This document shows, one piece after another, positions 1,877-13,385 of a DNA stretch of 64,000 bases. The translations under genes and the position numbers were made by a program. The stretch is from contig NZ_AWRU01000006.1 of NCBI RefSeq assembly GCF_000523515.1, forward strand, positions 604,253 to 668,252. The letters run 5' to 3'. Source of the DNA: Pedobacter sp. V48. Lineage in GTDB: Bacteria; Bacteroidota; Bacteroidia; Sphingobacteriales; Sphingobacteriaceae. The notes beneath the pieces are model-generated. The model was not told where the DNA came from, ran no database searches, and saw only the letters and a list, made by a program, of their open reading frames with translations. Position 1 is the first letter of the stretch. The number at the start of each line of letters is the position of its first letter.

Positions 1877-1980
1877 TTTTTAATGCGTTTGGATAGTATA
1901 ATTTGTTTAAACTTAATTAAAGCCTAAGGTATCGTTTTATATCTTTTTTCACTAATACTCTATTAAATCCATAGATTTTA

Positions 1981-2011
1981 TTTGTTTTTAACAAAAATGC
2001 AATTACATTTG
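1981..2011 (+). promoter_or_regulatory. Bacteroidota-type promoter of the leader peptide/SusCD operon
   Basis: TTTG at 1981-1984 is followed after 19 nt by TACATTTG at 2004-2011, an exact match to the Bacteroidota consensus TTTG-N19-21-TAnnTTTG. Transcription would start near 2016-2018, leaving a leader of about 260 nt before susC at 2280. The leader carries a 31-codon ORF and two hairpins. Confidence 0.7.
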
Positions 2012-2041: not shown

Positions 2042-2137
2042 ATGAAAAGAATTTTACACTTAAAAAAAGAAATTGCGCTCTGCAGTCTAAATCGATTGAG
2101 ATTTTCTTCTCACTGTTGTTGCTGTTCCATGCAATAG
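2042..2137 (+). CDS. Poly-cysteine leader peptide (candidate attenuator ORF)
   Basis: A 31-codon ORF starting at ATG 2042, about 25 nt after the predicted transcription start, and ending at TAG 2135-2137. The peptide is basic at its start (MKRILHLKKEIALCSLNR) and ends RFSSHCCCCSMQ: codons 25-28 are TGT TGT TGC TGT, with one more Cys at 14. Four Cys codons in a row in a tiny ORF, followed 22 nt later by a stable hairpin and then a large operon, is the classic layout of an amino-acid attenuator: ribosomes would stall when charged tRNA-Cys is scarce. The ORF is too short for database gene finders. That it is translated, and that it senses cysteine, are inferences; the sequence itself is certain. 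Confidence 0.7.
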   Translation: MKRILHLKKEIALCSLNRLRFSSHCCCCSMQ

Positions 2138-2159
2138 CATTTCAAGCTATAAAGAAATA

Positions 2160-2189
2160 ATAAAGACAGGATTAGCATCCTGCCTTTAT
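2160..2189 (+). promoter_or_regulatory. Leader hairpin 1 (candidate attenuator stem)
   Basis: Arms 2160-2172 and 2177-2189 form 12 base pairs with one A-C mismatch around the tetraloop TAGC. The stem begins 22 nt after the stop codon of the poly-Cys ORF. The lower part of the 3' arm is CCTTTAT and the sequence after it is CAAAG, so the U-tract is weak for an intrinsic terminator; it may need a factor or act at translation. Confidence 0.55.
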
Positions 2190-2193
2190 CAAA

Positions 2194-2230
2194 GCATTCA
2201 GTACGCAACGCCAATCACTTACTGAAATGC
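2194..2230 (+). promoter_or_regulatory. Leader hairpin 2 with an alternative partner in the leader ORF
   Basis: GCATTCAGTA (2194-2203) pairs with TACTGAAATGC (2220-2230), giving 10 base pairs and a one-base bulge. The same 3' arm, TGAAATGC at 2223-2230, is perfectly complementary to GCATTTCA at 2137-2144, directly at the stop codon of the poly-Cys ORF. A ribosome stalled on the Cys codons (2114-2125) would cover 2137-2144 and so favour one fold over the other. The pairings are seen; the switch is inference. Confidence 0.45.
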
Positions 2231-2279
2231 CAACTCGTTTCAACCAATAGAATTTTATTAATTAAAACTTTTTAAAGTT

Positions 2280-5200
2280 ATGCAAAATTTTAAAAAGGGT
2301 AAGCATTTGTATAGCGCTTATTCCTTGTTAAAAAAAACACTGCTATTGAAGAGCAGTATCGCGGTAATGATCTTATTGCCACTTATTTCCTTTTCCCAAA
2401 CTCAACCACTTATTAATTCTACTCTTAAAGGCCAAATTATTGACGCCGTAACAAAGCTTGGAATTCCTGGGGTAAGTATCCACATTACCGGTACTACACA
2501 CGTTGTACAAACAGATAAAAATGGGAAATTCGATTTTGTTACCGGTCAGAAATTTCCTTATACTTTAGAGATTACTTATGTAGGTTACGAAAAAAAACAG
2601 GTTGTAGCCAATGGAAGTCCAATTCTGGTTGAATTAAAAGAGAGTGCAAGTCAGCTAAATGATGTAGTTGTTGTGGGGTACGGTGCCCAAACACGTAAAA
2701 GTGTTGTGGGTTCTATTGTTAAGGTAAATGCTGCCGAAACCAAGCAGATTCCTGTAGCCAGTTTTGATGCCCAGTTACAAGGCAGGGCAGCAGGTGTGCA
2801 GGTAGGAACTTACTCTGGTTCCCCTGGTGAAGGTGTAAAAGTACAGGTACGGGGAACTGCTTCTATTAACGCTAGTAACGAGCCACTATATGTTATTGAT
2901 GGTGTATTTGTGAACAACAACTCTTTGTCAACCCTTGATCTTGGAGGTAAAAAAACATCGCCTCTGGCAGATATAAATCCCGCGGATATTGAGAGTATTG
3001 AAGTGCTGAAAGATGCAAGTGCTATTGCAATTTATGGTTCTCGTGGAGCCAACGGAGTTATTTTGGTAACCACTAAAAGGGGAGAGTACCTTTTAGGCAA
3101 AACAAAATATAATTTAGAGATATCACATGGCTGGCAAAAGGCTGATCCTGATAGATTATGGGAACTCACTACTGGTCCCGAGCATGCCATGCTGGTTAAT
3201 GAACAATGGATAAACTCGGGTAAAGACAAACCTAGCCTAAATCAAACCTACGAGAATCGCCCATTCAGACCAGTAACAGATGTTATTAATGGTGTTCCCG
3301 GAAGAGGTAATCCAGAAGATCAGCAAACTTATGATCGATTAAGCAGAGTCTTCAGAACTGCACAGGTTAAGAATTATGACCTTAGCATCCAAGGTGGAAG
3401 TGAGAAGATCCGTTATAATATAGGTGCCGGTTATACCGATCAGGAAGGAATATTAAAACCAGCTGATTTCCAGCGGGGAAGTTTTAAATTGAATCTTGAT
3501 AGTAAACTGAATGATAAAGTAACCCTTAGTTCAAGTAATGGCGTTTATAGAACATTCAGACAGCAAGTTCGAGGTGGCGCTGGTCAGCAGGCCGGACATT
3601 TACTTGCTGCGCTGCATCATCCGACTTATTTGCCTTTATACAACGCAGATGGAACGCCAGCAAGGGGTTCGATTTACGAAAATATTGATAATCTTGTAAA
3701 TACTGATATTACCGATATCTCGACCACAAGTATTCGGTATATAGGTAATCAGTTCATAGAAGTTAATATTTTACCAGGTCTTAAGTTTAAATCTTCGATC
3801 GGTTTAGATTATGATAACTATAATGAACGTGAGTTCTTTAACGATCAAACAATTATTGGTGGCAGCCCTAATCCATTGGGCTATAGAAAAGAGGTGTTTA
3901 GTACCAGCACGATTATTCAGAATGAACAAACCCTATCCTATGTAAGAGCACTTAATTCAAGGCAAAATATTACTGTTTTGATTGGAAATAGTATTCAGAG
4001 TACCGATGTTAAGGTCGCTCAGGAAGTTGGACAAGGTTTCCCAAATAATTTCTTTCAGCAAATCTCTGCCGCTTCTGTGAGGACAGCTGATCAGAGAAGA
4101 TCGAAGTCTACACTTGCTTCATTTTTTGGTAGGCTGAACTACAGTCTTGATAATAAATATTTTCTTGAAGGTGTAATCAGAGCTGATGGTTCATCTAAAT
4201 TTGGTGCCAATAACCGCTGGGGATTCTTTCCTGGTATAGGCGCTTCATGGAGGATCAAACAGGAGGCCTTTCTACAAAATTCTGAAACCATATCTGAATT
4301 CAAACTTAGGCTAAGTGCCGGTTCCGCAGGAAATCAAAATGGCATTAACGACTATGCCGCATTGGGTTTATGGTCTGGCTCAGCGGCGTATCCTGATAAC
4401 CTAACAAGCGGACCTAAACCTGGTGTAGCACCTGCTCAATTAAAAAACCCTGACTTGAAATGGGAGAAAACCACGACCTACAACGCAGGAATAGACCTGG
4501 GTTTATTTAAGGATAGGCTGTTCCTGAATTTTGATGCTTACTACAAGTACACCACAGATGCTTTGCTTTATTTGCCTGTGCCACAATCAACAGGGTATTC
4601 AAGCACATTGGCTAATGCTGGTGAAGTAAGTAATAAGGGAATTGAGCTGGCAATAACCGGAACAATTATAAAATCTAAGGACTTTGAATGGTCAGCAAAT
4701 TTTAACATTTCAAGAAATGTAAACCGAGCTGAAAAACTGGTTAGCCCTATCACCTTTGAAGCCAGAGAGTATAGAAGAACACAGGAAGGGGCTGCGCTGG
4801 GAAGTTTCTGGTTATACAAACAGCTATATGTTGATCCTACAACCGGAGATGCTATATTTCAACACGCCGATGGAACTACAGGAACTACTGTGACTACGGC
4901 AGATCGTCAGCTAATGGGTAATCTCATCCCTGATTTCTTTGGAGGTTTTTCTAATAATATCAGCTATAAAGGATTTGATCTGAACGTATTGTTTACTTAC
5001 CAATATGGCAATAAAGTATTCAATTTTAACAAGTACATTTTGGAAGGTGGGGGTACAAGAGATGCCTCCAGATCCATTTTAAAGAGCCAACTGAACAGGT
5101 GGCAAAAAGAAGGAGACATTACCAATACACCTCGAGTTACCAGTGTGGGTAATAATTATAACATCGAACAGAACAGCAGGTATCTGGAAGATGGATCCTT

Positions 5201-5435
5201 CATCAGACTTAAAGCGGCTTCTTTAGGTTATACTTTACCTGCATCAGTAACCTCAAAAGCAAGGTTGGGCAAAGTAAGGCTGTATGTTTTGGGAACGAAT
5301 CTCTGGCTTAAAACAAAATATTCAGGTGCCGATCCGGAAAGTTCGGGTAGTGCGGGTCAGAATCTCGACGGTTTGGATACAGCTACACCACCGCAACCAA
5401 GAGGAATTCAGTTTGGCGCTAACATCTCATTTTAA
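2280..5435 (+). CDS. SusC-type TonB-dependent outer-membrane transporter (first operon)
   Basis: A 1051-residue SusC/RagA-family receptor. After a signal peptide (about residues 1-40, ending LISFSQ) come a carboxypeptidase-D regulatory-like domain (LKGQIIDAVTKLGIPGVSI, about 48-125), the TonB-box region NDVVVVGYGAQ, the plug with PLYVIDGVFV and EVLKDASAIAIYGSRGANG, and a long beta-barrel ending in the C-terminal aromatic GANISF. There is no STN domain, so no anti-sigma signalling is expected. It is first in an operon with SusD, two DoxX-like proteins and a YeiH-like transporter, and is preceded by a poly-Cys leader. No glycoside hydrolase is in the operon, so its substrate may be a sulfur compound rather than a glycan. 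The latter is inference. Confidence 0.96.
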   Translation: MQNFKKGKHLYSAYSLLKKTLLLKSSIAVMILLPLISFSQTQPLINSTLKGQIIDAVTKLGIPGVSIHITGTTHVVQTDKNGKFDFVTGQKFPYTLEITYVGYEKKQVVANGSPILVELKESASQLNDVVVVGYGAQTRKSVVGSIVKVNAAETKQIPVASFDAQLQGRAAGVQVGTYSGSPGEGVKVQVRGTASINASNEPLYVIDGVFVNNNSLSTLDLGGKKTSPLADINPADIESIEVLKDASAIAIYGSRGANGVILVTTKRGEYLLGKTKYNLEISHGWQKADPDRLWELTTGPEHAMLVNEQWINSGKDKPSLNQTYENRPFRPVTDVINGVPGRGNPEDQQTYDRLSRVFRTAQVKNYDLSIQGGSEKIRYNIGAGYTDQEGILKPADFQRGSFKLNLDSKLNDKVTLSSSNGVYRTFRQQVRGGAGQQAGHLLAALHHPTYLPLYNADGTPARGSIYENIDNLVNTDITDISTTSIRYIGNQFIEVNILPGLKFKSSIGLDYDNYNEREFFNDQTIIGGSPNPLGYRKEVFSTSTIIQNEQTLSYVRALNSRQNITVLIGNSIQSTDVKVAQEVGQGFPNNFFQQISAASVRTADQRRSKSTLASFFGRLNYSLDNKYFLEGVIRADGSSKFGANNRWGFFPGIGASWRIKQEAFLQNSETISEFKLRLSAGSAGNQNGINDYAALGLWSGSAAYPDNLTSGPKPGVAPAQLKNPDLKWEKTTTYNAGIDLGLFKDRLFLNFDAYYKYTTDALLYLPVPQSTGYSSTLANAGEVSNKGIELAITGTIIKSKDFEWSANFNISRNVNRAEKLVSPITFEAREYRRTQEGAALGSFWLYKQLYVDPTTGDAIFQHADGTTGTTVTTADRQLMGNLIPDFFGGFSNNISYKGFDLNVLFTYQYGNKVFNFNKYILEGGGTRDASRSILKSQLNRWQKEGDITNTPRVTSVGNNYNIEQNSRYLEDGSFIRLKAASLGYTLPASVTSKARLGKVRLYVLGTNLWLKTKYSGADPESSGSAGQNLDGLDTATPPQPRGIQFGANISF

Positions 5436-5445
5436 TACTAGAATC

Positions 5446-6771
5446 ATGAATACTAAAAATAAAACACTCCTATTTTTATTGCTGATCAGTTCATCGCTGC
5501 TCTCTTGCAAGAAATATTTAGAAGTTTCACCATACGATACCATACCTGATGAAACTACGATCTATGATAGATCATCAGCAGAAGCTGCCGTAAGAGGAGC
5601 TTACCGCGGATTGGCAAGTCTTAATTATGGAAGCGCTTTCCAGAATACAATACTTCAGTCAGGTGGAGACATTAAATCACTAAACAATGCGCAAACGGAT
5701 TTGAATGTAATCAATTATGATCTGCGGTCAGATATTGCATTCTTATCAACCTATTGGGGAAACTTCTACAATACCATTAATCGCACCAATCATATTATTG
5801 AAAAAGTGCCCTTGGTCACAGATAATAAACTTGGTAATGATCTTAAAAATCAGCTGTTGGGTGAGGCTTACACCATTAGGGCCCTATCTTATTTTGATCT
5901 TGCGCGCGTGTTTGGAAATGTGCAGATATTTTTAACACCAACTAATGTGGTGGCTGATAAACTTGGCGTTAAGCAAAGTATTCAGGCTGAAGTGTTTGCT
6001 CAGGTGCTTGAAGATTTAAATAAGGCGGAGCCCTTGTTGCCTGCTACTGTTGTGAGGAACAGGATAACCAAGCTTGCAGCAATTGCATTGAGAGCCAGAC
6101 TTTACCTATATCAGAAAAAATATACTGAGGCCGAAGCTGATATCAATACTGTTTTGGCAAATCCCGGATATAAATTGATTAAACCTTTTAATCTTGCTGC
6201 GGGAACTTCAGAGTCTGTATTAGAGCTTTCTTACAGTGTAAATGATGTTAATGCGGGGTATTCTCAATGGAATACCAGTAACAGGGCACTTGAACCAAAA
6301 GCAGTAATTCACAATCTTTTGAACGATCCTGCTGTTGGTGGCGATCGTAAAATCCTTTCCGTAAAAAATGCTGCAGGACAATTTATAGGTGGTATTTATC
6401 CCACTAACACTTCTGCTGGATACATTATCAGAACGGCAGAATTATTTCTTAACAGGGCTGAAGCACGTGTACTTAAAACAGTACCTGATTTAAGCGGAGC
6501 AATTGCAGATATAAATGCGGTAAGGGTTAGGTCTAATGTTCCTGAAATAAGCACAAGTCTTAATAAGGATGAAGTCTTGTTGGCTATAGAAAATGAAAGG
6601 CGTGTAGAGTTTGCCCTGGAACCTTTCAGGTGGTTTGATTTGGTCAGAACAGGTAGAGCTTCTGCGGTATTGAACCTGAACGATCCTAATAAGTACATTT
6701 TTCCAATACCGGCAGGAGAGATCATTGCTGATCCATCACTTGTTCAGAATCCGGGTTACGGCAGAAATTAA
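5446..6771 (+). CDS. SusD/RagB-family surface lipoprotein (first operon)
   Basis: A 441-residue SusD-like substrate-binding lipoprotein partnering the SusC at 2280. Start chosen at ATG 5446, 10 nt after the susC stop, because it gives a lipoprotein signal peptide MNTKNKTLLFLLLISSSLLSC with the lipobox Cys followed by KKYLEVSP; the frame stays open upstream but that part overlaps susC and lacks such a signal. SusD hallmarks are present: a TPR-like N-terminal half (EAAVRGAYRGL, AYTIRALSYFDLARVFG) and the C-terminal NERRVEFALEPFRWFDLVRTG followed by IFPIPAGEI. At 441 residues it is shorter than typical starch-type SusD proteins and nearer to the RagB range. Ligand unknown. Confidence 0.95.
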   Translation: MNTKNKTLLFLLLISSSLLSCKKYLEVSPYDTIPDETTIYDRSSAEAAVRGAYRGLASLNYGSAFQNTILQSGGDIKSLNNAQTDLNVINYDLRSDIAFLSTYWGNFYNTINRTNHIIEKVPLVTDNKLGNDLKNQLLGEAYTIRALSYFDLARVFGNVQIFLTPTNVVADKLGVKQSIQAEVFAQVLEDLNKAEPLLPATVVRNRITKLAAIALRARLYLYQKKYTEAEADINTVLANPGYKLIKPFNLAAGTSESVLELSYSVNDVNAGYSQWNTSNRALEPKAVIHNLLNDPAVGGDRKILSVKNAAGQFIGGIYPTNTSAGYIIRTAELFLNRAEARVLKTVPDLSGAIADINAVRVRSNVPEISTSLNKDEVLLAIENERRVEFALEPFRWFDLVRTGRASAVLNLNDPNKYIFPIPAGEIIADPSLVQNPGYGRN

Positions 6772-6800: not shown

Positions 6801-8162
6801 ATGAGCAAAATAACAACCAACACAAATAAGGAATCACGGGAGTGGAAGCCCTGGGAAAAGAATTTGTTTAGGTTCTTCTTTATCTTCCTGGTGATCCAGA
6901 TCATTCCGATCGATTGGAAATTTTACAAAGAACTATTCTCTATCAATTGGCTTCACCTGCATTTCCACGATCTGTTTAAGTTAACTAAGTATCAAGCTCA
7001 ATTTTTTTCTGATAATCAAATTGCCGAATGGGGTATAGGAGGTTTTGCAAACTGGGTAGTATTTATAATTATTGCCGCTATAGGCGCTGTGATTTGGAGT
7101 AAAACAGATGCCAACAGAAAGGAATATACCAAGCTATACTACTGGTTAAGGGTATTGGTGAGATATCGCCTTGCGTTTGTACTGGTTACTTATGGCTTTA
7201 TCAAATTTTTTCCGTTGCAGATGCCTTATCCTTCGTTAAGTAATCTGCTGACTAATTATGGAGATTACTTTGCCTGGAAAATCTATTTCCAAACGGTAGG
7301 TATAGCACCTAAGTATGAATCTTTTTTGGGTTTTGTTGAAATACTTGCTGCCTTCTTGCTTTTTAACAGGAGGACTGTCACGTTTGGTGTAGGACTAATA
7401 TTCGGTTTTTTAGGGAATGTGGCGGTAGCAAACGGATTTTATGATATAGGTGAGCAGGCGCTAAGTACTTTTATTGTGCTCTTAGCAACTTTCTTATTTG
7501 TATACGACATTCCCAGACTATATGATCTGCTCATTAAAGAAACACCGGCTTATGCCAATAAATTTATCCCAAAATTTACTGACAGTCGCTTAAGAAATGC
7601 ACGGAAAGGATTAAAAATAGCGTTTGTGGCCTTTGTTGTACTCTTTGCATATAAGGCTTATGATAATTACACAAATGATCCTTATAAAATACCTCATACA
7701 CCAGGGTTAAGTAAAGCATTTGGGTATTATAATGTAAAGGAGTTTGTATTAAATAAAGACACTATACCATACTCTAAAACTGACCCTAACAGATGGCAGG
7801 ATGTGGTTTTCGAAAAATGGTCGACTTTAACGATCAAAGTGAATCGCCCGGTTAAGATAGACTTGTCGAGTGGCGAAGAAGTTCATGAAAAAGATATTGA
7901 TAGAAACTATGAACTGGCGGGATATGCAGGTCGCCACTATTTCTACTATGATGCCGATACTGTAAACCATACGCTTTCATTGCAGAATAAGAACAAAAAT
8001 CAACGGAATGAAAAGCTTCAGCTCAAGTATGAGCGGCCAAATGATTCAACAATAGTACTGTCGGGTATTAACGAAAACAGAGATTCGATACATGTGGTTC
8101 TTGCCAAAATAAATAAGAAGTATATGATGTTCGAAGGTCGCCGTAAACCTGTAAAAATCTAG
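6801..8162 (+). CDS. DoxX-like integral membrane protein, copy 1
   Basis: A 453-residue protein with a membrane-embedded N-terminal two thirds (about seven hydrophobic segments, e.g. around residues 23-43, 82-102, 124-142, 168-212, 218-236 and 270-290) and a soluble C-terminal part with the pattern GYYNVKEF...RWQDVVFEKW...FYYDADTVNHTLSLQNKNKN. The membrane part resembles the DoxX/DoxD family, whose best-known member is a subunit of thiosulfate:quinone oxidoreductase in archaea; other DoxX relatives have other or unknown roles. The next gene is a clear paralogue with the same architecture. The pair sits between susD and a TIGR01777 gene. Function as a redox or transport complex for a sulfur compound is inference. 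Confidence 0.75.
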   Translation: MSKITTNTNKESREWKPWEKNLFRFFFIFLVIQIIPIDWKFYKELFSINWLHLHFHDLFKLTKYQAQFFSDNQIAEWGIGGFANWVVFIIIAAIGAVIWSKTDANRKEYTKLYYWLRVLVRYRLAFVLVTYGFIKFFPLQMPYPSLSNLLTNYGDYFAWKIYFQTVGIAPKYESFLGFVEILAAFLLFNRRTVTFGVGLIFGFLGNVAVANGFYDIGEQALSTFIVLLATFLFVYDIPRLYDLLIKETPAYANKFIPKFTDSRLRNARKGLKIAFVAFVVLFAYKAYDNYTNDPYKIPHTPGLSKAFGYYNVKEFVLNKDTIPYSKTDPNRWQDVVFEKWSTLTIKVNRPVKIDLSSGEEVHEKDIDRNYELAGYAGRHYFYYDADTVNHTLSLQNKNKNQRNEKLQLKYERPNDSTIVLSGINENRDSIHVVLAKINKKYMMFEGRRKPVKI

Positions 8163-8184
8163 TTATCACTTAAAAGAAATTAAA

Positions 8185-9711
8185 ATGTCCACATTAGAGA
8201 TAAACCTGGATGCTCCTGCAGAAACAGCAGCAGTAGACAAACAAGAACAGGAAGTAATTAAAGAATCGCCTAAAACAGGTAAATGGAAGAACTATCAGAA
8301 AATAGCATTTCGGATAGGCTTTTTGTATATGCTTTTCTTGTGTATTCCCACTTATCCAAAGTTTTATGAGGAGCTTTTCGCTTTAAAGTTTTCAAAGATT
8401 ACCTATCATGATTTTCAAGCCATAGTCGCATTCTGGCCTCCACAGATTGTAACTATTGAATCAGAAGAAGGGGTGTTTGGGCTACTAAACTATATTAACT
8501 TGATTCTGCTATTTGCAGGGTCTGTTGTTGGAGGATTGATCTGGACTGCTCTTGATCAAAAATCCACAGAATATAGTAAGCTTTATTATTGGATAAGGGT
8601 ACTTGCTCGCTATCGCCTGGCTTATGGTATGATTGGATGGGGATTAAAGAAAGCTTTTCCGATGCAAATGGTTTTTCCTACAGTTGGGATGCTAAATACG
8701 CCATTTATTGATATGGCAGAGAAGAAGTTATACTGGTCGCACGTTGGTGTTTCTTTCTGGTATACTGTATTTCTTGGATTTGCCGAAATCCTTCCCGGAC
8801 TGTTGTTGTTAAATAGAAAAACTTCTCCTTTGGGAGCGGCACTAGCGGCTGTGGTAACGTTTAACATCTGTATTGCCAACCATGCTTATGACGCTGGTGT
8901 AGCAGTTCCCGCGGCTTATTTTGCCATTATTGGTATATTTATAGTGTGGTACGATTTACCTAAAATCTGGAACCTGCTGGTAAATGAAAAAGATATTCTG
9001 CCTTATCGATATCAGCCAGTTATCTCTGAAAAATGGCAGCGCAATCTCGCCGCAGGTGTAAAATGGACTTTTAATTTCTTGTTTGTTCCGGTTGCAGCTG
9101 GTTTGTGGGCATATGGTTTTTTTAACGGAAACAATTATAACATCCCCAGCACTCCAGGATTAGCGGGAGCAAAAGGCTATTATAACGTAACAGAATACAG
9201 GTTAAATAACAAGGTAGTTCCTTTTACTCCTCAAGACTCCATACGCTGGCAGGATGCAACATTTGAAGGTTGGTCGTCATTAAGCTATAAAACCAATCGT
9301 GGTGCAATTGCCGACCGCATGATCGGTTATTCTCCACTCCGAGTAAAGAATGATAAAAAGAATAACAGACTTAATCAGGTAAATACTCAAGATTCTGATC
9401 AATTAGACAAGCTAAAGAAAAACCGTGACCTTGGAGTAACAAGATGGGAAGTCGGTGGTATGGCCGGTGAACGCAGGTACTTTTTCTATAAGGCAGATAC
9501 AGTAAACCATATCCTTTATTTGCAGAATAAAAACAAGAATCATAAAGAAGAAACACAAGTTTTACACTACAGCAGGCCTACGGCAAATAGAATTATTCTT
9601 AATGGAATTAATGAATTTAGAGATTCTATTTACGTAGTCTTAGACAGATCTGATAAAAAGTATCCCTTAGTTGAAGGCCGATATAGTTCGGTAAGGGAGT
9701 ATAAACCTTAA
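8185..9711 (+). CDS. DoxX-like integral membrane protein, copy 2
   Basis: A 508-residue paralogue of the preceding protein. It has the same order of membrane segments and matching landmarks: KLYYWIRVLARYRLAYGM, YTVFLGFAEILPGLLLLNRK, and in the soluble tail GYYNVTEYRLNN, SIRWQDATFEGWSSLSYKTN, YFFYKADTVNHILYLQNKNK and LNGINEFRDSIYVVLDRS. It is longer because of an N-terminal acidic extension of about 30 residues and an insert of about 40 residues near residue 375-420. Starts 22 nt after copy 1. Two diverged copies side by side suggest a heterodimer. Assignment to the DoxX family rests on the membrane region; biochemical role unknown. Confidence 0.75.
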   Translation: MSTLEINLDAPAETAAVDKQEQEVIKESPKTGKWKNYQKIAFRIGFLYMLFLCIPTYPKFYEELFALKFSKITYHDFQAIVAFWPPQIVTIESEEGVFGLLNYINLILLFAGSVVGGLIWTALDQKSTEYSKLYYWIRVLARYRLAYGMIGWGLKKAFPMQMVFPTVGMLNTPFIDMAEKKLYWSHVGVSFWYTVFLGFAEILPGLLLLNRKTSPLGAALAAVVTFNICIANHAYDAGVAVPAAYFAIIGIFIVWYDLPKIWNLLVNEKDILPYRYQPVISEKWQRNLAAGVKWTFNFLFVPVAAGLWAYGFFNGNNYNIPSTPGLAGAKGYYNVTEYRLNNKVVPFTPQDSIRWQDATFEGWSSLSYKTNRGAIADRMIGYSPLRVKNDKKNNRLNQVNTQDSDQLDKLKKNRDLGVTRWEVGGMAGERRYFFYKADTVNHILYLQNKNKNHKEETQVLHYSRPTANRIILNGINEFRDSIYVVLDRSDKKYPLVEGRYSSVREYKP

Positions 9712-9716
9712 ATTCA

Positions 9717-10649
9717 ATGAATAATAAAATAATTATAGCTGGTGGAACAGGTTTTTTAGGATCTGCAATAATAAAAGCTTTTCCTGATAATGAAATTGTT
9801 GTGCTGACCAGAACGATAAGGAAAGATGAACAGAATATCAGATATGTACTTTGGGATGCCAAAAACATAGGCAATTGGACCCAGGAACTGGAAGGTTGCA
9901 AGGCAATAATTAATCTGGTAGGGCGATCTGTAAACTGCCGTTACACAAATGTTAATAAACAGGAAATCATTAACTCGAGGGTGGATGCAACATTAAATAT
10001 TGGAAAGGCAATAGGAGAATTGAACAAACCACCTGAGGTATGGATTAATGCGGGTTCTGCAGCTATTTTTGGAAATTCTGGCGATGAAGTGAAAGTTGAA
10101 GATTCAGTTACAGGAAATGGTTTTTCTCCTGAAGTCTGCAAGGCCTGGGAGAAAGCTTTTACTAAATATGATACTCCAAAAACACGAAAAGTATTTTTAA
10201 GAATAGGGATGGTTTTGCAACAAAATGGTGGCATTTTAAAACCATTCCTGAATATGGCTAAGTTTGGACTAGGCGGCAAAATAGGTAAAGGTAACCAATA
10301 CATGACCTGGATACACGAGCAGGATTTCACGGATCTGATAAGATATACAATCCTAGACGCTGATTTTAAAGGAATTGTTCATGCAGCCAGCCCTTTTCCG
10401 GTAACTAATAAAGAATTTATGAAAACCATCAGACAGTCTATTAACATTCCATTTGGGTTACCCAACCCTGCTATATTTATAAAAATAGGTGCTGTTTTTA
10501 TCGGCACAGAGGCAGAACTTGTTCTTTCAGGAAGAAGAGTGGTATCGTCAGTTTTGGAAAAGAATGGATTTAAATTCAAATATCCCTACCTTCACGATGC
10601 AATAATAAGGTTGTTAAACGAAAATAAATTATCATTAAGTAAGAAATAA
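9717..10649 (+). CDS. TIGR01777-family epimerase-like oxidoreductase
   Basis: A 310-residue extended-SDR protein of the TIGR01777 (YfcH / SDR39U1) family. The N-terminal cofactor motif is IIIAGGTGFLGSAII (glycines 9, 10, 12 and 15). Family landmarks include INLVGRSVNCRYTNVNKQEIINSRV, WINAGSAAIFG, RIGMVLQQNGGILKPF, YMTWIHEQDF and a C-terminal DUF1731-like tail (VLSGRRVVSSVLEKNGFKFKYP). The usual catalytic YxxxK of SDR epimerases is not obvious, as is common in this family, whose function is not established. It starts 5 nt after the second DoxX-like gene, so it is surely co-transcribed. Confidence 0.88.
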   Translation: MNNKIIIAGGTGFLGSAIIKAFPDNEIVVLTRTIRKDEQNIRYVLWDAKNIGNWTQELEGCKAIINLVGRSVNCRYTNVNKQEIINSRVDATLNIGKAIGELNKPPEVWINAGSAAIFGNSGDEVKVEDSVTGNGFSPEVCKAWEKAFTKYDTPKTRKVFLRIGMVLQQNGGILKPFLNMAKFGLGGKIGKGNQYMTWIHEQDFTDLIRYTILDADFKGIVHAASPFPVTNKEFMKTIRQSINIPFGLPNPAIFIKIGAVFIGTEAELVLSGRRVVSSVLEKNGFKFKYPYLHDAIIRLLNENKLSLSKK

Positions 10650-10655
10650 ATTATA

Positions 10656-12089
10656 GTGGGAAAACCAGATTTTGATGCAGTAGTGGTTGGTTCAGGACCA
10701 AATGGTTTAGCAGCTGCCATAGCATTACAACAGGAAGGCCTGTCGGTATTGATTATAGAGGGAAAGAATGAGATAGGAGGCGGATTGAGGTCTGCCGAGT
10801 TTACCTTGCCTGGCTTTGTACATGATGTTTGTTCCGCTATTCATCCTCTTGCAATTGGCTCGCCATTTTTTAATACGCTCCCGCTACAGGATTATGGATT
10901 GTTTTATACATTTCCAGATCTCGCTGCTGCTCATCCATTTGATGACGGTACGGCGGCCGTCCTGGGTAGTTCTATTGAAGAAACCGCAAGATTGCTTGGC
11001 GATGATGAGCAAGCCTATCTTAAATTATTAAAGCCACTAGTTAACGACTGGCCGGATATAGCAGCTGATGTTCTGGGGCCTTTGCATTTTCCTAAACACC
11101 CTATTGCTATGGCTAAATTTGGATTAAATGCACTTAAATCAGCCACTTTCCTGGCCAAAAGGTTTAAAACTAAAGCTGCAAGGGGATTATGGGCTGGAAT
11201 GGCAGCACACTCCCTTCAACCCCTCTCTAACTTAACCACATCGGCAATAGGACTAGTATTAATGGCTGCGGCACATCTAAAAGGATGGCCTATTCCCGTA
11301 GGGGGATCTAAAGAAATCGCAAATGCATTGTCGTCTTATTTTGTTGCTTTAGGGGGTAAAATCGAAACCGGACGTTTTATAAAATCTTTAGACGAATTGC
11401 CTTCTTCCAGAACAGTATTATTTGATGTAACACCTAAGCAATTGCTGCAAATAGCTGGTCATAAGTTTTCTTCCATTTATAAATGGCAATTAGAAAGATA
11501 TCGCTATGGAATGGGTGTTTTTAAAGTGGATTGGGCTTTAGATGAAGCTATTCCCTTTACTGCAAAAGAGGCACGCCGCGCAGGAACAGTGCATATTGGT
11601 AATACATTGGAAGAAATTGCCTTATCTGAAAAGCTTAGCTGGCAGGGCAAACATGCCGACAAACCTTTTGTATTACTTGCGCAGCAAAGTTTATTTGATA
11701 CATCGAGGGCTCCGGAAGGGAAACATACAGCATGGGCTTACTGTCATGTGCCAAATGGATCGCTAACAGATATGACTGAAACTATTGAAAAACAAATAGA
11801 GCGCTTTGCCCCTGGTTTCAGAGATAGAATATTAGCCAAACACACCATGAACACTGCACAAGTGGAGGCTTACAATCCAAATTATATAGGAGGAGATATT
11901 AACGGTGGCGTAATTGACCTTGGACAGATTTTTACAAGACCGGCTTTACGCAGTTCACCTTATCGAACTTCTGCAAAGGGTCTATATCTGTGCTCCTCGT
12001 CAACTCCCCCAGGAGGAGGGGTACATGGAATGTGTGGTTATCATGCTGCAAAACGCGCTTTAAAAGACATTTTTTCCATCTCAATTTAA
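10656..12089 (+). CDS. Phytoene-desaturase-like FAD-dependent oxidoreductase
   Basis: A 477-residue flavoprotein of the phytoene dehydrogenase/PYROXD2 group. It starts with GTG at 10656, 6 nt after the stop of the preceding gene; no ATG lies closer to the N-terminal dinucleotide-binding motif VVGSGPNGLAAAIALQQEG (G12, G14, G17), so GTG is the likely start. The C-terminal FAD motif is GLYLCSSSTPPGGGVHGMCG, typical of the family. Despite the family name it need not act on carotenoids: no crtB or crtE is in the operon. In this context it may oxidise or reduce a product of the SusCD/DoxX uptake route; substrate unknown. Confidence 0.88.
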   Translation: MGKPDFDAVVVGSGPNGLAAAIALQQEGLSVLIIEGKNEIGGGLRSAEFTLPGFVHDVCSAIHPLAIGSPFFNTLPLQDYGLFYTFPDLAAAHPFDDGTAAVLGSSIEETARLLGDDEQAYLKLLKPLVNDWPDIAADVLGPLHFPKHPIAMAKFGLNALKSATFLAKRFKTKAARGLWAGMAAHSLQPLSNLTTSAIGLVLMAAAHLKGWPIPVGGSKEIANALSSYFVALGGKIETGRFIKSLDELPSSRTVLFDVTPKQLLQIAGHKFSSIYKWQLERYRYGMGVFKVDWALDEAIPFTAKEARRAGTVHIGNTLEEIALSEKLSWQGKHADKPFVLLAQQSLFDTSRAPEGKHTAWAYCHVPNGSLTDMTETIEKQIERFAPGFRDRILAKHTMNTAQVEAYNPNYIGGDINGGVIDLGQIFTRPALRSSPYRTSAKGLYLCSSSTPPGGGVHGMCGYHAAKRALKDIFSISI

Positions 12090-12128: not shown

Positions 12129-13385
12129 ATGTCAGAAACTAAAAAACTAAACATTCATGAAGATTGGGTAGTAGTTATCCTTGGGGCCCTAACAATTATT
12201 TTAACACTTTCCGGACTGCTATTGCCCGTTCCCGTATTTAACTGGTCCAGCATTGCTGATCTTACCTCATCAGTACTAACTGCTTCAAACCTGGGGTACA
12301 TTGGATTGCAATTTATATTGGTAATCATCATAGCAGCATTAGGTTCTTTTTTAACAGGTAAATCTGTTAAAAGTGCCGTGCTAACTTTTCCCTCTGTATA
12401 CGTATTAACCATGATAGCGCTTGTGCTTGCAGGTAACAGCCAGGTTAAAGCATTAAATCTGGAAGCGGTAATTTTTAGTCTGGCTATTGGTTTAGCAATC
12501 AGTAACTTTTTTAAACTACCGGAATGGTTTAAATCAGCTTTATCTACTGAGCTATTTGTTAAAATAGGATTAGTGCTATTAGGTACAAGTGTAATCTTTT
12601 CAGATGTATTAAAGGCGGGCTCTCTGGGCTTAATCCAAGCCTTGGTCGTAGTGCTTTCTGTTTGGTATTTCGCATTTTGGCTGTGTAAAAAAATGAAGAT
12701 AGACGACGAGCTAACCATGATGATTTCAAGTGCAGTTTCTATTTGCGGCGTATCAGCAGCAATAGCAACATCAGGGGCCATTAAAGGGGATTCAAAAAAA
12801 CTATCTTATGTGATATCTATGGTGCTTATTACAGCAATACCAATGATGATCTTTATGCCATATATCGCGGCGTACTTTCATTTTCCACAGGCAGTTACAG
12901 GAGCATGGTTAGGTGGTAGTATAGACACAACCGGAGCAGTAGTTGCATCAGGGTCTTTGGTAGGAGAGGAAGCGCTAAAAATCAGTACTATTGTTAAGTT
13001 CTCGCAGAACGTATTGTTAGGGATTGCAGCATTTGCAATTTCAGTATACTGGACTTACACACAACATCCTGCCGGAAAAGATAAAGAAAGCAAACCGACG
13101 CTTAAGGTGATTTGGGAGCGTTTCCCTAAATTCGTAATCGGCTTTATTGCAGCCTCATTATTATTTTCTTTCTTCATTACACCGGAGGTAAATGCAGAGG
13201 TTAAAGGTAGCTTAAAGAACTTACAGGGGCTTTGGTTTGTACTGGCCTTTACCAGTATCGGATTAGAAACCAACTTTGCAGATCTGTTCGGTAAAAACAG
13301 TAAAAAACCTTTCTATGCCTTTTTAATTGCTCAAGGTTTCAATATTATCATTACTTTAATTATTGCATTTATACTTTTTAGGTAG
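12129..13385 (+). CDS. YeiH/PSE-family ('putative sulfate exporter') membrane protein
   Basis: A 418-residue protein with about ten or eleven hydrophobic segments. It carries the signature blocks of the UPF0324/YeiH (TIGR00698) family: SICGVSAAIATSGAIKGD, WLGGSIDTTGAVVASG and LAFTSIGLETNFADLF. The family is called putative sulfate exporter by inference from relatives; no substrate is firmly proven. It starts 39 nt after the flavoprotein with no terminator between, so it is taken as the last gene of the SusCD-DoxX operon. A sulfur-linked family at the end of an operon headed by a poly-Cys leader is mutually supporting evidence. Transcription ends at the palindrome 13405-13438. Confidence 0.88.
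   Translation: MSETKKLNIHEDWVVVILGALTIILTLSGLLLPVPVFNWSSIADLTSSVLTASNLGYIGLQFILVIIIAALGSFLTGKSVKSAVLTFPSVYVLTMIALVLAGNSQVKALNLEAVIFSLAIGLAISNFFKLPEWFKSALSTELFVKIGLVLLGTSVIFSDVLKAGSLGLIQALVVVLSVWYFAFWLCKKMKIDDELTMMISSAVSICGVSAAIATSGAIKGDSKKLSYVISMVLITAIPMMIFMPYIAAYFHFPQAVTGAWLGGSIDTTGAVVASGSLVGEEALKISTIVKFSQNVLLGIAAFAISVYWTYTQHPAGKDKESKPTLKVIWERFPKFVIGFIAASLLFSFFITPEVNAEVKGSLKNLQGLWFVLAFTSIGLETNFADLFGKNSKKPFYAFLIAQGFNIIITLIIAFILFR

Follow-up and report, generated by a model that had tools for sequence, protein, structure and literature searches.

A poly-cysteine leader ORF and a predicted antisense RNA upstream of a probably sulfur-scavenging SusCD operon in Pedobacter sp. V48

SusCD systems are mostly viewed as importers of carbon in the form of glycans. 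The window analysed here, a stretch of 64,000 nucleotides from Pedobacter sp. V48 (contig NZ_AWRU01000006.1, positions 604,253 to 668,252 of the forward strand), contains a SusCD operon that extends from susC to a gene for a YeiH-type putative sulfate exporter (Table 1). The two membrane-protein genes behind susD also adjoin susCD in relatives; the label DoxX, which the original prediction gave to their products, was not confirmed by Pfam or NCBIfam.

Upstream of susC, the 31-codon ORF and the promoter described in that prediction are both present. The ORF encodes the peptide MKRILHLKKEIALCSLNRLRFSSHCCCCSMQ*, carries TGT TGT TGC TGT as codons 25–28 and ends 142 nt upstream of the susC start. 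The promoter-like TTTG-N19-TACATTTG, assigned by what is taken to be the Bacteroidota promoter consensus, is also conserved at the congeneric locus L333. Its −7 box ends at 2011 and the leader ATG lies at 2042, which places the ORF approximately 25 nt past the predicted transcript start, so that it does not qualify as leaderless. A putative operator adjoins the −33 element, and 17 of the 31 leaders have loosely similar sites (TACTAAATCTATAGATTT) 20–35 nt 5′ of a TAnnTTTG −7 box, a count that rests on a loose pattern without a control run. A second V48 copy of this operator-like site precedes another CCCC leader, that of a TonB receptor gene; a candidate copy 5′ of the V48 sulfite-reductase operon showed partial resemblance only and was rejected. 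An Rfam scan of positions 1880–2400 returned sxy alone, at 26.4 bits against a cut-off of 70. Neither plasmid copies of positions 1900–2700 nor tRNA genes within the window were found.

Table 1. Features of the SusCD operon and its upstream region, in window coordinates.
Feature	Position	Strand	Basis
Putative operator CTATTAAATCCATAGATT, directly 5′ of the −33 element	1960..1977	+	Loose motif likeness in relatives
Promoter-like, Bacteroidota-type: TTTG (1981–1984), 19 nt, TACATTTG (2004–2011)	1981..2011	+	Sequence
Poly-Cys leader ORF, 31 codons	2042..2137	+	Read from sequence; Cys-rich-ended leaders in relatives
Putative regulatory Cys codons, TGT TGT TGC TGT (codons 25–28)	2114..2125	+	Sequence
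U-rich tract past the antisense terminator hairpin	2149..2156	−	Terminator scan
Predicted antisense RNA, ~115 nt, both ends inferred	2150..2265	−	Folds, terminator, promoter signals
Hairpin 1, read as intrinsic terminator of the predicted antisense RNA	2157..2191	−	−19.6 kcal/mol, 15 bp
Hairpin 2, stem-loop B of the predicted antisense RNA	2194..2230	−	Fold
Conserved loop word ATTGGCGTT	2207..2215	−	Comparison with relatives
5′ stem-loop A of the predicted antisense RNA	2237..2268	−	Fold of L039; covarying pairs in A2
Predicted antisense −7 box TAACTTTA, reaching base 1 of the susC start codon	2273..2280	−	Fixed offset in relatives
susC (TonB-dependent SusC/RagA family)	2280..5435	+	TIGR04056
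susD, likely start 5446	5446..6771	+	PF07980, PF14322
Two related membrane proteins (6801–8162, 8185–9711)	6801..9711	+	No family above cut-off
TIGR01777-type epimerase	9717..10649	+	Family match
FAD-dependent oxidoreductase	10656..12089	+	Family match
YeiH-type putative sulfate exporter	12129..13385	+	PF03601; TIGR00698 below its cut-off

A SusC family search delimited a clade approximately 43–55% identical to the window SusC, which was extended with contigs of Sabulibacter, Hymenobacter, Spirosoma, Aquirufa, Parapedobacter and Pedobacter, among the matches listed. Upstream regions were searched for an ORF of 3–90 codons, within 420 nt of susC, with at least three Cys in its last eight codons. 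Short Cys-run ORFs of the predicted kind recur upstream of these genes: they were found in 29 of 62 subfamily regions (window included; among the matches listed), compared with a mean of 1.08 and a maximum of 4 in 100 dinucleotide shuffles of the same regions and with 3/62 on the opposite strand, it being understood that locus counts are not independent events because many of the sampled genomes are closely related. The same search found a leader for two of five SusC of intermediate distance and for 6/77 distant SusC; four of these six are the Flavobacterium loci L128, L129, L130 and L162, which carry a second ORF as well, ending CCCK, CCSK or SCCK. Among the 33 subfamily regions without such an ORF, some have shorter forms (AMCCR, or a bare M-C-stop). 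Of the 63 subfamily rows, 62 entered these counts, L124 being a duplicate of L041, as did 5/8 intermediate and 77/79 distant rows, the others having less than 300 nt upstream; the V48 paralogue L006, whose upstream region is partly masked, was excluded.

A later search of 19 congeneric genomes gave matches in six, at seven loci (L333–L339) that lie outside the 29/62 count. CCCC is present in L333 and L335 and shorter forms occur in L337 (MCNC) and L338 (CC), while nothing passing the leader test was found at L334, L336 or L339. At L333, where SusC is 52% identical, the peptide is largely different and ends TDYCCCCPM. What is conserved is chiefly the Cys run and its position, and little else of the peptide is kept. 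Searching 201 genomes for homologues of the leader sequence itself returned chance-level matches only (best non-self E value 0.02). The last Cys codon adjoins the stop codon in 23 of the 31 leaders and lies at most three codons away in all, a distance that is partly set by the search, which itself demanded Cys in the last eight codons. The poly-Cys leader is real and far from chance.

Several relatives contain, as judged by eye, an M-C-stop or M-x-C-stop mini-ORF such as ATG TGT TGA (L048, L050, L051, L053, L065–L068 and L120), possibly a minimal form of the leader. In L048, L050, L051 and L053, the mini-ORF follows a Shine–Dalgarno-like AGGAGG or GGGAGG, which is unusual for Bacteroidota.

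Within the window operon, YeiH is the only recognised sulfur gene, and YeiH-like partners occur in operons of the SusC clade. SoxC sulfite dehydrogenase scored above its cut-off in L120, L274, L278 and L279, in L120 together with cytochrome c, and Flavobacterium L129 contains sulfatases and a rhodanese-thioredoxin. Two further proteins fell below the NCBIfam cut-offs, one being sulfatase-like (L277) and the other a luciferase-type monooxygenase closest to SfnG/SsuD (L276). L122, a locus without a leader, has an O-acetylhomoserine/serine sulfhydrylase (cysteine synthase or OAH/OAS sulfhydrylase). No sulfur gene was recognised downstream of the leaders in L105 (a V48 paralogue), L119 or L131. 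The presence of a poly-Cys leader on a SusCD clade often accompanied by sulfite dehydrogenase, sulfatases or YeiH suggests that the clade comprises sulfur importers and offers a simple test of what they carry; the window operon is probably sulfur-scavenging. The leader Cys codons likely sense cysteine or sulfur supply. Of what was originally proposed for a Cys leader ahead of a SusCD operon, sensing is supported by a run conserved where the peptide is not, by the sulfur partners and by the leaders of sulfite-reductase operons described below; the attenuator built from sense-strand hairpins is not.

The two hairpins between the leader and susC are best read on the minus strand, as parts of a predicted DonS-like antisense RNA whose promoter would overlap the susC start codon. 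In that orientation, the A·C mismatch of hairpin 1 becomes a G·U pair and the hairpin runs into a U-rich tract. Among 42 loci, terminators of −8 kcal/mol or better numbered 29 antisense versus 14 sense, and at −10 kcal/mol or better the subfamily gave 36/63 antisense versus 7/63 sense, the loci of both counts not having been picked for an antisense terminator; one further strand comparison took only loci chosen for that feature and is biased. Furthermore, a TAnnTTTG −7 box (at least 5/6 match) stands at one fixed offset, by the susC start codon, in 65% of 48 loci with the antisense terminator, compared with 11% of 100 other loci and at most 7% at other offsets. The original prediction asked for a covariation test of the two hairpins; in the antisense fold of one loop class, A2, 9 of 22 consensus pairs show two-sided changes. 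A second, poorly aligned loop class has five consensus pairs only, two of them with two-sided changes.

Among relatives, the loop word occurs in either orientation, GATTGGCGTT or CAACGCCAATTG, as though flipped within the hairpin, and variants are found in L042, L044, L045, L063 and L068. Plasmid antisense RNAs have similar loops, the UUGGCG U-turns, and a U-turn-like loop might explain why either orientation works. Across the V48 genome, ATTGGCGTT has 71 sites, compared with 74 for the reversed control; because the loop word lacks genome-wide enrichment, there is no evidence of a trans-acting network.

In Bacteroides polysaccharide utilization loci (PULs), the available text on the DonS family describes cis-antisense RNAs of 78–128 nt that are divergent to susC homologues and lower their expression (PMC7366714). 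The RNA predicted here would match these in place, size, orientation and possession of its own promoter and terminator; unlike the Bacteroides examples described there, it would accompany a Cys leader on operons linked to sulfur, and its hosts are Pedobacter-like bacteria and others. Strong antisense terminators were also seen directly 5′ of distant susC genes in diverse Bacteroidota (L139, L141, L146, L151, L156 and L165), which suggests a wide distribution of DonS-like antisense RNAs across the phylum.

Taken together, the conserved Cys run with its place by the stop codon, the sulfur context of relatives and the antisense terminator and promoter signals make it quite probable that the region is a two-part leader, in which a Cys-run ORF and a DonS-like antisense RNA precede a probably sulfur-scavenging SusCD operon. 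With the Cys run at or next to the stop codon, the time a translating ribosome dwells at the leader end would depend on charged tRNA-Cys. When cysteine is ample, the ribosome would clear the leader and expose untranslated RNA (142 nt here, 57–293 nt in relatives), on which the antisense RNA and early termination, perhaps by Rho, could then act, leaving the operon off. When cysteine is scarce, the ribosome would linger at the leader end and the operon would be transcribed and translated. The proposed switch of leader and predicted antisense RNA thus probably turns the operon on when cysteine is short, and induction by low tRNA-Cys charging, as originally suggested, is plausible.

Because the run is at or adjoins the stop codon, the positions of starved and terminating ribosomes nearly coincide, and because these stand within a few codons of one another, dwell time rather than position is likely the signal. 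A dwell-time signal likely fits blocking of Rho better than a Yanofsky-type switch. Ribosome blocking of Rho is known from TnaC. In the 70 nt past the leader stop, C exceeds G (0.235 versus 0.160), as expected of a Rho site, a weak bias found in 15/31 leaders compared with 16/67 distant and 10/34 leaderless relatives. More tentatively, part of the Bacteroidota may run a cysteine-tRNA regulon in which one sensor, a terminal Cys run in a very small ORF, has two outputs: a classical terminator at sulfite-reductase operons and, at SusCD operons, an antisense-RNA circuit in which the ribosome on the leader would determine whether Rho or the conserved antisense RNA can shut down susC.

That leader and antisense RNA work independently, the former through reinitiation or coupling at susC and the latter in answer to another signal, is somewhat unlikely, and would not exclude the two-part arrangement. 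One candidate for the other signal is carbon priority, reportedly proposed for DonS. The two modules are separable between loci: L040, L057, L060, L062 and L119 have a leader and no antisense terminator at −10 kcal/mol, and L042, L045 and L122 have the terminator and no leader. Similarly, 21/85 other SusC genes are preceded by an antisense terminator of −10 kcal/mol or better, compared with 6/85 on the sense strand, and most of the 21 lack a Cys leader. Direct coupling at susC is, however, disfavoured by the long and variable gaps between leader and susC. In L042, L044, L046 and L055, a AAAGGAGG-like motif was seen beyond the antisense terminator, viewed from susC, and is not followed by any clear leader ORF.

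Attenuation on the sense strand, as first proposed, would make hairpin 1 the terminator and the pairing of the ORF end with the 3′ arm of hairpin 2 the antiterminator, and is improbable at this locus. Hairpin 1 does comprise 12 pairs on the plus strand, but as two sets of six around one A·C mismatch rather than an uninterrupted 12-bp stem. Its sole U-rich part (CUUUAU) sits in the 3′ arm; the doubt voiced originally about its U-tract was justified, as none follows the hairpin on the sense strand and the tract lies on the side of the strong antisense terminator. The second hairpin is present as claimed, appearing also in the plus-strand MFE structure (z −2.86), and the ORF end can pair with 2222–2230 through an 8-bp match in the window, but this pairing is not conserved. 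Among 19 loci (window included), no conserved pairing between the leader end and the antisense target was found, z-scores ranging from −1.8 to +1.9 except for −4.0 at L238, whose tested stretch runs into the hairpin. The varying leader-to-gene distance likewise argues against a sense attenuator. The window thus lacks the sense intrinsic terminator, exclusive with a conserved antiterminator, that defines a classical amino-acid attenuator.

Other loci lend sense attenuation more weight. In L230, L250 and L253, hairpin 2 has a T-rich sense tail, so some sense termination is possible there; these are three of the seven subfamily sense terminators. By eye, a hairpin of −6 to −7 kcal/mol at the leader end of L247 is followed directly by TTTTTC, and a strong hairpin (−17.8) in L041/L124 has a T-run starting some nucleotides later, although neither L041 nor L247 was flagged by the terminator scan at −10. 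Given the sense hairpin and T-run at the leader end of L247 and, less clearly, of L041/L124, outputs may differ between lineages.

Sense attenuators with Cys-run leaders do exist in the genus, 5′ of sulfate-assimilation operons headed by sulfite reductase, where leaders similar to that of the window occur in the same genus and in other families. Examples are MNFNFIPNKLIAMQIMCCCKTQ (L302), MINQNKMMCCCCKSTERWKW (L311, another family) and, from two further families, a seven-Cys leader (L313) and one with CCCCC (L332). At 48 sulfite-reductase loci, ORFs with a Cys pair numbered 20 on the sense and four on the antisense strand, and an intrinsic terminator lay in the last 60 nt of 21 on the sense strand versus one on the antisense. 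Antiterminator-like hairpins form just past the leader stop in L297, L300 and L305 when folded without the 3′ arm of the terminator. Correspondingly, the sulfite-reductase leaders of several families are apparently classical cysteine attenuators. The V48 sulfite-reductase leader, MKTVNCSFNYMIMQCMKG, has scattered Cys and Met codons only, with a strong terminator, and none of ten sulfite-reductase loci in family f20 has the device. The loci in which Cys/Met leader peptides go together with antiterminator-like folds and strong terminators on the sense strand are L283 (2400–2560) and L285–L332.

Leader-peptide attenuation has been reported 5′ of amino-acid biosynthesis operons in Flavobacterium psychrophilum, and Cys leaders are not mentioned for this species in the available part of that report (PMC9723704). 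Measured against the attenuators described there, the window shares a short ORF ahead of genes and differs in lacking a sense terminator and conserved antiterminator, whereas the sulfite-reductase leaders fit the classical type.

Equally poor are the prospects of a peptide sensor, in which metal binding or thiol chemistry of the nascent Cys-rich chain would govern stalling, with no readout of tRNA charge. The precedent is CruR, a DUF2946 uORF that senses copper 5′ of the bfrG TonB-transporter operon and, according to the sections available, acts by stalling and Rho (PMC9426467). The window likewise places a Cys-rich uORF ahead of a TonB-linked target, with control that would be comparable, and CCCC contains C-x-x-C. 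CruR as described there has CXXC and RAPP motifs and a recognisable family, whereas the window leader peptide matched neither DUF2946 nor any other Pfam or NCBIfam family and has no RAPP motif. Moreover, leaders can be as short as MKNFCCSC or MCCCAFA, with a run at the very end that would still be in the ribosome tunnel at termination, and both the sulfur partner genes of relatives and the same run ahead of sulfite-reductase operons argue against a peptide sensor. Selection of the run as RNA (UGYUGY repeats, for example a binding site) with an incidental ORF is very improbable, for although such repeats are common in the V48 genome (87 matches to TGYTGYTGYTGY versus 11 for the reversed pattern), the run shares its frame with a start codon upstream, mostly abuts the stop codon, uses both Cys codons (70 TGT, 45 TGC), is rare on the opposite strand and in certain leaders alternates with Met (RMCMCC, RMCMCMC, MCMC), keeping the amino acids rather than the repeat.

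The Cys-run leader also has a counterpart in Actinobacteria, where short ORFs with a Cys-codon run near the stop precede cysteine genes; the available text notes no conserved sense terminator and suggests Rho (Seliverstov 2005, PMC1262725). Leaderless Cys-leader ORFs are the subject, by title, of Canestrari 2020 (Mol Microbiol 114:93). The window resembles these systems, as far as the accessible text describes them, in its short ORF with a Cys run near the stop and in the sulfur genes of its relatives; it differs in host phylum, in heading an import operon rather than cys or cbs operons, in an ATG about 25 nt into the transcript rather than a leaderless ORF, and in the predicted antisense RNA. 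Cysteine-codon leaders in Actinobacteria and PUL-type antisense RNAs are thus each known; what appears new, as read from sequence, is that both are joined on one SusCD operon. No poly-Cys leader in Bacteroidota was found in the literature searched, and absence elsewhere is not claimed; cysteine-codon leaders, met only in Actinobacteria in that literature, would extend to Bacteroidota. Leader translation and a predicted cis-antisense RNA would also meet here on one 5′ UTR, which makes the locus a natural system for studying the two together.

Elsewhere in the V48 genome, 73 sites matched the Cys-stop pattern TGYTGYTGYTRA, from which TAG stops were left out, and 30 match loci and 20 chosen stretches were looked at. 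Two ORFs end in CCC: no gene was found behind the first (L093), and the second (L095, partly masked) lies 192 nt 5′ of a 104-codon ORF. Three further CCCC leaders precede a susCD paralogue, the TonB receptor gene whose leader has the operator-like site, and a PhyH dioxygenase. The last of these, near 421.5 kb of C32 (L101/L272), lies 72 nt 5′ of the PhyH-type dioxygenase gene, which is thereby a candidate addition to the sulfur regulon.
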